Under the pieces are notes generated by a model. It ran no database searches. It saw only the letters and a list, made by a program, of their open reading frames with translations, and was not told the DNA's origin. From Fasciola hepatica (Eukaryota > Platyhelminthes > Trematoda > Plagiorchiida > Fasciolidae), in the NCBI GenBank assembly GCA_948099385.1, contig CANUEZ040000165.1, forward strand, positions 9,208,001-9,272,000: a DNA stretch of 64,000 nt, given 5' to 3'. This document shows positions 3,226 through 42,462 of this stretch, in pieces. Every line of letters begins with the position of its first letter. The first letter of the stretch is position 1. A program made the translations under genes and the position numbers.

Positions 3226-3530
3226 TTTACATACTACTTACTACCAATATGAGCTCTTGCACACGCAGCCACGTTATTCGTTGGGTTAACAGTGACCCAG
3301 ACACGAATAACTATGAGAAATCACAGTTGTGATTCATTTGTGGGCTCTTCAATGAGGAGTATCCATTCAAACTCCAGACGATTCAAATTAGATTCTAGTA
3401 AGCATATAACATCAGAGTGTACAAGTATGAAGATAAGTGGGCAGAGGAGTGCCGGGTACGCATACCTGATGAGCGGCAACAACCGCGAAACCGGTCTTGT
3501 GCTTCCGGGGGAATCTTGTCGACGCGTTCA
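3226..3530 (+). repeat. Roughly 300-bp dispersed repeat, copy 1, with hammerhead-like core
   Basis: This copy matches the reverse complement of 42165-42460 almost base for base by eye (shared: ACGTTATTCGTTGGGTTA, AGTGACCCAGACACGAATA, CACAGTTGTGATTCATTTG). The last part also matches 36131-36220. The unit appears to restart: after 3520 the words GCGTTCACATACTACTTACC repeat the beginning of the unit at 3229, which suggests a tandem or circular-template origin. Open frames here reflect repeat conservation and are not proof of a protein. Confidence 0.8.
3466..3491 (+). ncRNA. Hammerhead-ribozyme-like core, copy 1
   Basis: CTGATGAG is followed by a 4-bp hairpin (GCGG, loop CAACAA, CCGC) and then CGAAAC. 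This is the conserved catalytic core order of hammerhead ribozymes (CUGAUGA, stem II, GAAA). Penelope-like elements and SINE-like satellites of flatworms are known carriers of such motifs. After GAAA a CCGG...CCGG hairpin could be stem III, but the U-H cleavage dinucleotide expected next is not present (G follows). The motif may be degenerate or inactive. Confidence 0.45.
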
Positions 3531-3619
3531 CATACTACTTACCATCTATATAGAGAGAGGGAGGGAATATTCCTACAAGCAGAAGGAAGTTTTGCCGTTT
3601 TTTGGATGGTACGTTGACT

Positions 3620-5115
3620 ATTCAAGTATCTATTCGGACTGAAGTTTGCAATTGTTGCCGACTGTCAAGCCCTTCAGTTCTTTTTTAACCCAAACAAATC
3701 AGTCACTAGATCCCCGGCTGCTATGAATCAGCAATAGAGCATTGCCTTAGCTGTCTATGACTGCGACACTGCATCAACCCGGAAAGACAATCCGGCAAGC
3801 TGACTTCTTGTCGCGATACTCAGCCGCAGAACAATGCCGTTTTATCTCACCGGCCAAGCCTGTGTCGAGGGGGGAATTGCGGAAGAAGACAAAATGACAC
3901 TAATCGTCCCCGATGTTGACGACCAGGGGAAAGATTCCACAATTCTTTGTACCACAAGAGGAATCTAGTATCCAACCTGACGGTGTACTTTGTCGAGATA
4001 ACCGGCTAGTCTTTTCACTTCAATTGCTCAAGTCGGTTTCGGATGGATGTTAGGATGTTAAAAAGAGAAAAAGTTTTCTAGGCAAGCCATTATTCAACTC
4101 GAGCGTGTCAGGCCGGATTGACCAACCAATAGTCATTAAATTATCGGACCACTTATGACGTAACCCTTTTGCTGATCGAGCATTCATCTATAGTCCGACG
4201 CAAATTGGGTCAACCGATCAATGGTCAATCCCGCAATATGTTTCTATCAACCTAATCGGCCCCACAGAGCTTGAATCTAACTGGACGTCCGAGTTGGGGA
4301 ATATTCAATTTTTGCTTTATATACAGCACATTAATTTCTGTTAATGACACTTTTTTGGCGAGTCGGGTTTTGCCCTCTGATTTTCCGTAGCGGGTTGGAG
4401 CGATCGGGATTCGCAAGCTGAGATTGAGTGCGCCGGTTTCACGAGAGACCAGAACGTATTAACGGAGCACACGAAGACCGCTTGAGTGGAGATTAAATGA
4501 AGGTACTGGCTTGAAAGATGTGTTGGTGGCCGGAATCGGATACGGGCAATTGCACTACGGCAACGAACTGCGATGTGTGTTTGCACAAAGTCCACTGAAG
4601 GCCAACTAACTGGAACCCATGACCTGAAAGCTACATTCCATGGCAGAGGGTTCATGCTGACTTCTGTGGCCCATTCTTGAACCGGTATCATGCCCTTTTA
4701 CTGATTGACTCACACCTTAAATGGCCGAAAGTGTTCTTGAAAAGTTCACCAATCACCTCGTTTGTAATTCAGGCGTTACGGGAGGGCTTCAGCCAAAAAT
4801 AAGTGCCAGAAGTACTGGTCACCGATAACGAATTGCCATTCTGTGCAGCGGGGATGAAAAGCTGACTTGACAGAATCGGATTTTAGCGTTCAGTGCCGTG
4901 TCACCCGTGCTCTAATGATGCAGCAGAGAATTTGGTTTGTTCTGTGAAAAGTGTGATAGCATTAGCCAACCCGAGAAAGTTGGTTGACTTGGAATAGTTC
5001 CTCGAAAATTTCCTGCTGCATTATCGAAATCCTGTGCATGCGACCAACAACGAGTCCTGTCCAGAAGACTGCTGTCATCGCTCGAATGTCCGAATTCCAG
5101 TGACGTCACACACTA
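3620..5115 (+). mobile_element. Ty3/Gypsy-type LTR retrotransposon relic (RNase H to integrase)
   Basis: At about 3644-3850 the + strand reads KFAIVADCQALQFFFNPNKS and LAVYDCDTAS, as in the RNase H domain of Ty3/Gypsy polyproteins. At about 4648-5100 it reads HADFCGPF, HALLLIDSHLKWPKV, PEVLVTDNELPFC and DAAENLVCSVKS, which together supply the three acidic residues of the integrase core (D in HADF, D in VTDN, E in AAEN). Several in-frame stops and frameshifts break the reading frame, so no functional protein is expected. No clear pair of LTRs could be delimited. Confidence 0.85.
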
Positions 5116-5536
5116 CCGTGGCAACTGTGGTGTGGTCCCACTAATGGTCAGATCACTGACAGCGTCAATACAATAACGGCAAACCTATTGATCGAACATT
5201 CGGTACCGGCTTCTACCACACAAACGTGCACACACGTACATACGTCACAGTGACTTCACGCATGCCAAAAAGGCTTGCTCTAGTAAATCAGACTTTGGCC
5301 CTGAACCATACGGGCTTGTTGATTTGTTGCTGCTGTGCAGCCCTGTTTGACGTCACTCGATCGCATGTACTCCTTGTGCCTGCCTATCAATGATTCGCTT
5401 GCTTGCTCGCTTGCCTGCGTGCTTACTGATGCCCTAGTAGACGGATTCGTAGTGTGTTGTGTTCTCCGTTAATAGCGAAAACAACAGCAACGAGTTTCGA
5501 CCAACTGGCTGACTTATCACTAGATATCTTGGTCAG
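5116..5536. other. Region between Gypsy relic and first candidate exon
   Basis: No gene is seen. It contains a run of GCTTGCTTGCTCGCTTGC-like short repeats near 5398-5420 and could include the remains of a Gypsy 3' LTR, but no second copy is available to define it. Confidence 0.35.
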
Positions 5537-40201: not shown

Positions 40202-41560
40202 GTACGTGATCGATATTCGGTGATTTGGTCCAGTGCATTTTTCATATCAGCTCATCAAATGACCTTGAGTTCTCGCACCGATCGATTTCCTGAGAAGAGA
40301 TCAGAAATTGCTATGCTCTTGAACATTAGTATTGCTGAAATATGAACCGTTCACGATGAAACAGCTGTATGAGAGTAAATTCTCTCGCTTCGTATATGTA
40401 CGTGTGTATATGCGTGTGAGCGAGCACGCATATTTTGACCAGTCAGAATAGGGACGGGGGCACCACACCTACGATGTCCAGGTGTAGATGCCAGATTCAA
40501 CCGATAGCAAACCAAGTGGAAAAGATTTTTGATATTCTGTGCCTCGATATTCCCTGTGGTTTCAGAGGTTGAGTTATTCTCTAGAATTCGTTCAACACCA
40601 GTTTGTGAAATGAACGCTGAGCCAAGAACTGCGTATTGAAAAGTCAGTTAAACTACATTGCACGATAAATGTCCGGGGCAGTTTTTCTACACTTGTGCGT
40701 GGTGCATACTCCAAGCAATACACCGTTTGAGTATGTTTGTTTAAAAACCCAATGCCCGAAAATAATGAGAGAAGAGAATGCAATAGAGGGAGCACAGTTA
40801 CGTCAATGCGGTAAAGACTAATTACCAAACGATACGTCCTGTTGACACAGTGAAGGTTCCCGCCAATGGACGGCGTTGACCTATAAAAACCTTCATAGTC
40901 TCTAATTTTCTACGGAAAAGAGCAGGGATTCAAACAGAATGATGTTGCCTGGTTAGAAGACGATGAGCAAAAGTTGACGGGTGGGATCTAATGGTTTGCC
41001 AACGTTGCTATCCCGTGTTTGACCTGACCTTGGATCCAATTCAACGTATGTTCCACAAATCGGCAAACTAATCGTCATTTATTTATTGTGATAGAGTGGG
41101 AAAATACAAATCATAAAACTATTTGGATGGTGGGATAGTTGTGAAACTCGTTCTTGTCGTAGGAAGCACATGCAGCTATTTCGATAGCATGAATGACAAT
41201 TTTTTCTACGTAACAAATCTATGCATTTTCACAAGGATGTCCTTTGATATTCTCTCGTGTTTGTTCGGTTGCAAAGATGGCATACCGGGGTTTTAACATA
41301 AACTAACGCCTTCTCGACTGTTCCGCCAGATCACCATCGCAACTGAACTTTTGGGATCTAATGGAGTTTTTCATTGCCATTCTTAGTCCCAGATTCCCAA
41401 ACATCTGCTGTAGTGTAATGGGTCTTTCAGGTTATGCGGTATGGTTCCACCAAGGCATTCATGCATCCGCATGCTGTAAGAAAACCACCCGATAAACTGA
41501 AAGCGTACTTTTGTGTGCGTCCAGCCAACGGGATTATCTCCTAGTATCCCTGGGCAAAAC

Positions 41561-41740
41561 TCATTCTAGACTTGACGAATAGGAGACATTGTAATCGAAT
41601 ATTTTTTTGCATGAATCCACACCTTTCGTTTCGTGTTTAAATCGGTCATCCGAAGTCTGTTTGTACGATTCTTGCGCGTGCAGATCCTCACTAAAATGCA
41701 CGTGGTCAAATGGGTGAATCGAAATATTGTTTTTGGTTGT
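41561..41740 (-). CDS. Candidate - strand exon (possible 3' end of the nested gene)
   Basis: After a good acceptor (pyrimidine-rich GTCGCCTATTCTGTCTC, then AAACAG), a - strand frame reads TTKNNISIHPFDHVHFSEDL, AQESYKQTSDDRFKHE and NVSYSSSLE to a TGA at 41561. The composition looks coding. The frame that would fit the phase of the nested gene's last clear exon (phase 2) is also open, to a TAG at 41566, so the frame and gene membership are undecided. Confidence 0.3.
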   Translation of the reverse strand, partial: TTKNNISIHPFDHVHFSEDLHAQESYKQTSDDRFKHETKGVDSCKKIFDYNVSYSSSLE

Positions 41741-42164
41741 CTGTTTGAGACAGAATAGGCGACAGACAACCCAATCTGTTATTGTGCTTGGATCTTAAAC
41801 TGTGGCCTAAGGGTCCTAAAATATTTAGTATTTAGGTGACGTAAAATTTACCAGCTTTTTTTGCATCCCAAAATCCACTCCATGAGTCAAAATAGAATCA
41901 GTGAGCTTGCGCTTGCGGGGTAGACGCATTATCAGTTAACATATCGTGGTATGATCAGTAGGATATGAATTACACAAACAGATATCGAATGATACAAAAT
42001 CAACAGTAATTCCTAGCCAAACGTCTGCCTGGAATACTAAGTACCTGAAACCAGTTCCGTAGCAATATACGAGAATCTGCAGCGAGATGAATCTGATCGG
42101 ACGAGTCATCGGAAGCACCTATTACCTGCGAGTAGCATGGTGTCGTATCTGGATGACAGGACAA

Positions 42165-42462
42165 AATTCCCCTGGTAGCACACTAGCGGTTTCGCGGTTG
42201 TTGCCGCTCATCAGGTATGCGCACCCGGTGCTCCTCTGCCCACTCATATTCATACTTGTACACTCCGATGTTATATCTTCACAGGGATCTAATTTGAATC
42301 GTCTGGAGTTTGAATTGATACTCCTCATTGAAGAGCCCACAAATGAATCACAACTGTGATTTCTCATAGTTATTCGTGTCTGGGTCACTGGTAACCCAAC
42401 GAATAACGTGGCTGCGTGTACAAGCGCATATGTTGATAGTAAGTAGTATGTGAACGTGTGGA
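42165..42462 (-). repeat. Roughly 300-bp dispersed repeat, copy 2 (- strand)
   Basis: The reverse complement is nearly identical to 3226-3530, including the start TTCACATACTACTTACTA. It abuts a 130-bp TA tract on its 5' side, as the other copies do. Confidence 0.82.
42189..42214 (-). ncRNA. Hammerhead-ribozyme-like core, copy 2
   Basis: On the - strand CTGATGAG, hairpin GCGG-CAACAA-CCGC and CGAAAC are identical to copy 1. Downstream CCGCTAG...CTACCAG could be a decayed stem III hairpin. The expected U-H cleavage site after it is again missing. Confidence 0.45.

Follow-up and report, generated by a model that had tools for sequence, protein, structure and literature searches.

Decayed copies of a hammerhead-bearing repeat beside TA tracts in Fasciola hepatica, and a possible route for their insertion

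The 64,000-nt stretch of the Fasciola hepatica genome considered here (contig CANUEZ040000165.1 of assembly GCA_948099385.1, positions 9,208,001 to 9,272,000; below, the window) contains three scattered repeats, each carrying CTGATGAG followed by GAAAC and each lying against a (TA)n tract. An earlier sequence-only reading had located them, likened the motifs to hammerhead ribozyme cores, and suggested a degenerate or variant hammerhead family; the places and motifs hold on rereading of the sequence. The question is what these repeats are, and how they came to lie beside TA. They are what remains, after decay, of copies of a very small and abundant mobile element whose RNA holds a complete hammerhead ribozyme. 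By its anatomy the unit is probably a retrozyme of the metazoan type without long terminal repeats (non-LTR), and the preferred account of its movement, at a probability of about 0.75, is a TA-primed, two-strand reverse transcription whose template is circular or multimeric RNA.

Across the genome searched (1.5 Gb in 656 contigs), the best matches to the first window copy are 301-bp tandem arrays. The repeat fills the whole of eight 10-kb stretches at 301-bp spacing; seven small contigs and a 513-kb one carry them. A consensus was built from 234 units of 301 nt, with unit position 1 just 3' of the cleavage site. The mean distance of array units from this consensus is 1.9 nt, and its G+C content is 45.8%. 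The unit is short and non-coding, and the family is both tandemly arrayed and dispersed, which bears out the earlier suggestion that hammerhead cores are carried by a dispersed repeat family. Exact matches to the intact 31-nt ribozyme core number 7,059 in the genome, array and dispersed copies counted together, and its reversed control has none. Pattern scans of viral contigs gave no match.

Judged from its sequence, the array consensus is a complete type I hammerhead, with a CUGANGA and GAA(A) core, three stems, a U-H cleavage site and an open stem I. It reads CCGG-GUAC-GCAUAC-CUGAUGA-GCGG-CAACAA-CCGC-GAA-ACCGGU-C/GUGUGC-UU-CCGG, the slash marking the predicted cleavage site. Stem I pairs GCAUAC with GUGUGC and then, across a GUAC internal loop, CCGG with CCGG; this internal loop and the CAACAA loop II are both present in the consensus. 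A GUAC bulge in stem I is presumably also found in SMalpha of Schistosoma mansoni. Stem III is the loopless palindrome ACCGGU, followed by C, the cleavage nucleotide of GUC, and by the 3' side of stem I, GUGUGC-UU-CCGG; the apparent hairpin after GAAAC (ACCGG..CCGG) resolves into these three parts. Array units score 35.0 to 42.4 bits against the Rfam model Hammerhead_HH9 (RF02275; best E=2.7e-9), under its curated cut-off of 52 bits, as do copy 1 (35.8 bits, E=3e-7, aligned end to end) and copy 3 (30.5 bits, E=7e-6). Copy 2 has no hammerhead match; at curated cut-offs Rfam gives no match in the whole window. A chance motif as the source of the ribozyme is ruled out by the E-values of copies 1 and 3 and the array units.

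Several features that had seemed absent or odd in the window copies look different beside the consensus. GUC is present where no U-H dinucleotide had been seen, with cleavage predicted after position 3496 in copy 1. Stem I, which had not been paired in full, is whole in the array consensus; the window copies carry damage to it, in copy 1 a C-U mismatch next to the cleavage site. Copy 2 has several ribozyme mismatches, and copy 3, which combines a stem III mismatch with CUA instead of GUC, is probably inactive. The variant stem II bases ascribed to copy 3 belong to copy 2 (at 36178), stem II being identical at 3466 and 42214; copy 2 is an 81% fragment, for which decay is a simpler explanation than the selection on RNA structure once suspected. 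With a complete type I hammerhead as its consensus, the family lends no support to the idea of a variant hammerhead that lacks a cleavage site.

Without a loop, ACCGGU folded on itself can form no more than a single A-U pair flanking CCGG; being self-complementary, it allows two ribozymes to share a six-pair stem III. For a single 57-nt strand, the best predicted fold is inactive (-21.5 kcal/mol) and the active fold lacks stem III (-16.8 kcal/mol). Two such strands, folded without constraint, form a double hammerhead with both cores free, at -46.3 kcal/mol compared with twice -21.5. In this model stem III forms only between two ribozymes, which makes it a predicted dimeric hammerhead like that of newt satellite RNA.

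When array units are anchored outside the ribozyme, CUGAUGA..GAA is kept in 236 of 246; among these 236, ACCGGU is found in 222, AUCGGU in 13 and GUC in 235. Purifying selection on the ribozyme within arrays is not seen: over 235 units it differs from the consensus at 0.0083 per site, compared with 0.0057 elsewhere in the unit, a further mark against the earlier proposal of selection. Such a lack of visible constraint is expected if arrays are homogenised. The best matches to RNA polymerase III (pol III) A and B boxes in the unit are no better than in shuffled sequence, and its identity as a pol III short interspersed element (SINE) was rejected on this ground.

The mode of spread was approached through 72 insertion clusters with 97 copies: the three in the window, two dispersed loci (L013 and L014), and 67 clusters in 64 loci taken in contig order from the list of exact core matches. 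Copies at G000:C3:7444533, 7451994 and 7459455, spaced exactly 7,461 bp apart, represent a tandem segmental duplication and were counted once. The 3' ends are concentrated at two sites, with 44 in unit positions 45-57 and 36 in 203-216 (80/97 together; 59/67 when only copies with 95% identity or more to the consensus are counted). The 5' ends are scattered, with 10/97 in the same two ranges compared with 8.7 expected. The only ATAT/TATA sites of the unit, at 52-55 and 209-213, match 3'-end sites 55 and 213, and the 3' junctions read ..ACTATCAATAT followed directly by (AT)n and ..AGTGAACATATA followed directly by (TA)n. The first of these junctions, searched as the exact string TACTTACTATCAATAT-(AT)n, has 392 genome matches, its reversed control 0. 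Most young copies lie within (TA)n tracts: of 49 single inserts, 34 have a TA run of at least 10 nt next to their 3' junction and 29 next to their 5' junction, and for the 38 that reach 95% identity to the consensus the figures are 34 and 25. Few ends lie within 5 nt of the cleavage site (three 5' ends and one 3' end among the 97). Thirty of the 97 copies are longer than one unit, the longest reaching 692 nt.

A plain satellite might be expected to give some of this, if arrays released DNA circles that were reinserted into broken TA tracts through microhomology with no RNA step. The homogeneity of the arrays and the TA microhomology at junctions would fit. Circles opened at TA, however, predict symmetric ends, and the ends are as polar as just described; DNA-only spread was rejected for this reason, and the satellite explanation, which the arrangement of neighbouring copies also contradicts, is regarded as quite improbable.

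All 21 two-copy clusters are head-to-head, with their 3' ends outward. Both outer ends are at a site in 16 of them, and in all 16 the combination is 55 with 213 (P ~1.3e-5 if the sites are independent, 4.8e-6 with single-insert frequencies). TA runs flank both outer sides of 14 pairs, one side of six and neither side of one, and in 15 of the 21 the two copies overlap by 1-6 nt at the centre. The three-copy clusters are L061 (-,-,+) and L071 (+,-,+). Although tail-to-tail neighbours are not entirely missing, the unambiguous pairs all run head-to-head.

Polar ends, ragged 5' ends and head-to-head pairs point indirectly to spread by reverse transcription, and the polarity and pair geometry together suggest that it was primed by target DNA on both strands. 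Copies of more than one unit imply a circular or multimeric template. The 301-nt circle has a predicted folding energy of -98.6 kcal/mol, compared with -72.5 (standard deviation 6.0) for mononucleotide shuffles, and the 14 most unpaired 8-nt windows of the predicted circular fold all lie within 40-56 or 206-216. Linear hammerhead-cut monomers may also have served as template; core-based sampling works to the disadvantage of copies starting at the cleavage site.

The preferred account takes the family, the complete ribozyme, the arrays, the fixed 3' and ragged 5' ends, the TA junctions and the pair geometry from the genome sequence, and adds self-cleavage, circularisation, primer annealing and an enzyme by inference. 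Two adjacent hammerheads in a transcript would pair via their self-complementary stem III ACCGGU and cleave at GUC; the unit-length RNA released would be circularised, or uncut multimers would serve as template. An endonuclease would cleave both strands of a (TA)n tract, and a TA-ended strand would anneal to one of two open UA-rich RNA loops (unit positions 52-55 and 209-213) and prime reverse transcription, which could exceed one unit and would halt at varied points. One primed strand would yield a single insert with a ragged 5' end; two, one per loop, would yield two complementary DNAs that meet and are joined by short homology into a head-to-head pair. A single RNA circle that carries each site once and is primed by both strands would account for the consistent pairing of 55 with 213. 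Some pairs are jointly longer than one turn of a shared circle allows without strand displacement. The likeliest supplier of the enzyme would be a Penelope-like element. A more specific version, in which the UA loops act as paired primer docks on one circle, cut TA strands prime one per dock (hence the constant 55-with-213 combination in two-site pairs), and the copies record retrotransposition from a single circular RNA by a two-strand-cutting Penelope-like enzyme, is put forward tentatively, at slightly less than even odds.

The 301-nt unit lacks reverse transcriptase (RT) and GIY-YIG frames, and the element that combines RT and endonuclease is separate. The presence of Penelope-like elements, already noticed from the sequence, is confirmed: a longer genomic copy, L129, has an RT frame (RVT_1, E 1.4e-9) and then a GIY-YIG-like frame (E 0.018, below cut-off), which is the Penelope-like order, and a fragment lies in the window at 2687..3062. 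Between 2550 and 3220 a head-to-head Penelope-like pair sits between two TA tracts with retrozyme copy 1 right after the second, as successive inserts in one TA-rich place. Seven opposite-strand pairs of this family within 3 kb are all head-to-head (40 scored of 2,394 candidates), and its 40 3'-end stretches have two alternative ends, ..CTATATATA and about 20-25 nt beyond. The Penelope-like protein studied in PMC11167929 acts at AT-rich DNA, where each of the two strands is cut and extended; it starts at two internal RNA sites, and its element has an optional "tail". In PMC3846280, head-to-head is the commonest inverted arrangement of Adineta Penelopes. That Penelope-like machinery provides the retrozyme's enzyme is judged a little better than an even chance, and another Penelope-like family or a long interspersed element (LINE) may be the engine instead. 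A frame at 37571-37981 (minus strand) was read by eye as a Penelope-like endonuclease fragment, for which Pfam, PDB and protein searches gave no support; Pfam found nothing above cut-off in 13 window frames.

Such neighbours could also suggest that a Penelope-like element itself owns the ribozyme, as a degenerate or variant hammerhead, minimal hammerheads being known in these elements (PMC7761336, from the part of the review available). The consensus, however, is a complete type I hammerhead, the 301-bp unit forms arrays of its own, and the window's Penelope-like fragment has no hammerhead in the Rfam search. A Penelope-borne minimal hammerhead was rejected on the consensus unit and the hammerhead-free fragment, and ownership of the ribozyme by a Penelope-like element is very hard to credit.

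The insertion record might alternatively reflect a SINE-like element mobilised by a LINE that targets TA tracts, twin priming taking place on linear RNA multimers. Truncation at the 5' end is usual for LINEs, which counts in favour of this. So does the head-to-head geometry, which twin priming also yields, as described for L1 in the available portion of PMC2837659. The two internal 3' start sites without a fixed RNA 3' end fit poorly, as do the 14 of 21 pairs with TA beyond each end and the pol III boxes at chance level; on these features of the retrozyme a LINE-driven SINE is considered unlikely. Besides the twin-priming parallel, several observations weigh against two-strand, TA-primed movement by a Penelope-like enzyme. 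Outside the two sites lie 17 of the 97 3' ends, and one end is off them in five of 21 pairs. In L071 a plus-strand copy of 78% identity stands 38 nt ahead of a minus-strand copy, and in L078 a plus and a minus insert (counted as two clusters) are opposed across a TA tract. Long copies fit multimeric RNA as well as a circle. Exact-core sampling favours young, core-spanning copies over copies starting at the cleavage site, and the intactness of young dispersed copies is partly built into it. To these may be added ribozyme variability within arrays that is no lower than in the rest of the unit, and the hammerhead-free Penelope-like fragment; a TA run of at least 10 nt beside 8 of the 40 Penelope-like 3'-end stretches, so that the window's Penelope-like family is no strict TA inserter; and the start without homology to cut DNA by the Penelope-like protein studied (PMC11167929, in part).

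Comparisons with known systems rest here on the portions of the sources available. Metazoan non-LTR retrozymes (Cervera and de la Pena 2020, PMC7229834) have in common with the present unit a type I hammerhead, a length within 170-400 nt, occurrence as dimers to large arrays and as dispersed copies, and a G+C content below 50%; no LTR, primer-binding site or polypurine tract is described for them in that text. Efficient monomer cleavage is given for most invertebrate ones, whereas the retrozyme here is predicted to need dimers; metazoan retrozymes make circular RNA, which for this one is a prediction. That text does not describe internal sites at which 3' ends are fixed, nor TA targets or head-to-head pairs of 55 with 213. 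The satellite hammerhead of newt and axolotl, HHR_Amex1 (PMC7229834), likewise has a one-bp helix III, a palindromic tetraloop (here A-CCGG-U) and dimeric action; its repeat of ~330 bp is likened to the 301-bp unit by architecture, not by sequence comparison. Minimal hammerheads of Penelope-like elements (Cervera and de la Pena 2014; Lunse et al. 2017; via citing papers) share the reduced stem III and dimeric action, but lie in pseudo-LTRs and are without loop contacts (PMC7761336), in contrast to the separate non-coding unit and two-part stem I found here. Schistosoma mansoni SMalpha and W-elements (PMC8490949) are also repetitive elements with type I hammerheads; SMalpha is set apart, by features and not by sequence comparison, through its pol III boxes, none of which is found beyond chance in the 301-nt unit. 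Poseidon PAc (PMC11167929) and Adineta Penelopes (PMC3846280) share head-to-head copies, 5' truncation, partial tandems, alternative 3' ends, AT-rich targets, and the cutting and extension of both strands, both steps being presumed for the retrozyme. The retrozyme encodes no protein, and its 3' sites match the TA target, unlike PAc with its homology-free start.

Animal retrozymes are known as abundant sources of small circular RNA, and how their RNA is inserted has so far been unclear. A 2020 review by the group behind PMC7229834 describes retrozyme repeats as having no conserved motif that would reveal the autonomous element mobilising them (PMC7761336, in the text available). In this genome, where the copies record copying into TA tracts, such marks would be the fixing of 3' ends at two sites within open UA loops, the use of TA tracts as targets, and the head-to-head pairs with one site each. 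It is this insertion record that is new: a retrozyme and such an insertion signature were not found together in the open-licence literature, which is no proof of their absence.

Within the window, the (TA)n tract is at the 5' side of each copy, as had been claimed from the sequence (Table 1). Three of six junctions lie at most 4 nt from a tract end (P ~1.5e-7 if random, a rough figure for junctions placed by eye post hoc, with copy 2 at 36131). Copies 1 and 3 form a 358-nt inverted pair with an 89% match, TA tract included. Downstream of unit position 25 copy 3 no longer follows the consensus, a trait it shares with a few other old copies. A divergent stretch downstream of unit position 20-25 is common to old copies in the window (42159-42464) and at L023, L030 and L088, seemingly a separate old subfamily.

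Table 1. Retrozyme copies, TA tracts, hammerhead parts and Penelope-like sequences in the window
Feature	Position	Strand	Details
Penelope-like element, 3' part	2687..3062	-	Ends at TA tract 2550-2686; 59/71 residues identical to endonuclease frame of L129
Penelope-like family, inverted second 3' end	3067..3165	+	Head-to-head partner of 2687..3062; 99-nt arms, 90% complementary
(TA)n tract, copy 1 5' junction	3181..3220	.	2 nt off aligned edge
Retrozyme copy 1	3222..3551	+	1.10 units, 93% to array consensus; unit positions 27 to 55
Retrozyme copy 1, 3' end			Site 55, reading ..CTTACCATCTATAT
Copy 1 hammerhead	3452..3508	+	From copy 1 sequence and Rfam alignment
Copy 1 hammerhead, stem I outer CCGG	3452-3455 / 3505-3508		
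Copy 1 hammerhead, GUAC loop	3456-3459		
Copy 1 hammerhead, stem I inner	3460-3465 / 3497-3502		
Copy 1 hammerhead, CUGAUGA	3466-3472		
Copy 1 hammerhead, stem II	3473-3486		
Copy 1 hammerhead, GAA	3487-3489		
Copy 1 hammerhead, palindromic stem III ACCGGU	3490-3495		
Copy 1 hammerhead, predicted cleavage	after C3496		
(TA)n tract, copy 2 5' junction	36080..36130	.	6 nt off aligned edge
Retrozyme copy 2	36136..36225	+	90-nt fragment, 81% to array consensus, ribozyme decayed
Retrozyme copy 3	42159..42464	-	1.02 units, 92% to array consensus
Copy 3 hammerhead	42161..42232	-	Rfam match; one stem III mismatch, A at cleavage position
(TA)n tract, copy 3 5' junction	42464..42594	.	0 nt off aligned edge

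Other repeats were noticed along the way. At L014:3850-4812 a sequence ending ..GTCAG adjoins TA tracts repeatedly, twice facing itself across one tract, and may represent another TA-inserting family. TA tracts abutted by related ..GGGTTAGCGGTGA-like sequences at L021:299-366, L038:1040-1093, L073:709-765 and L075:957-1007 suggest a candidate TA-associated family. In the window, 58318-58604 and 59513-59799 form a 287-nt inverted pair, 94% complementary, whose arms are separated by 908 nt and whose ends lack TA tracts.

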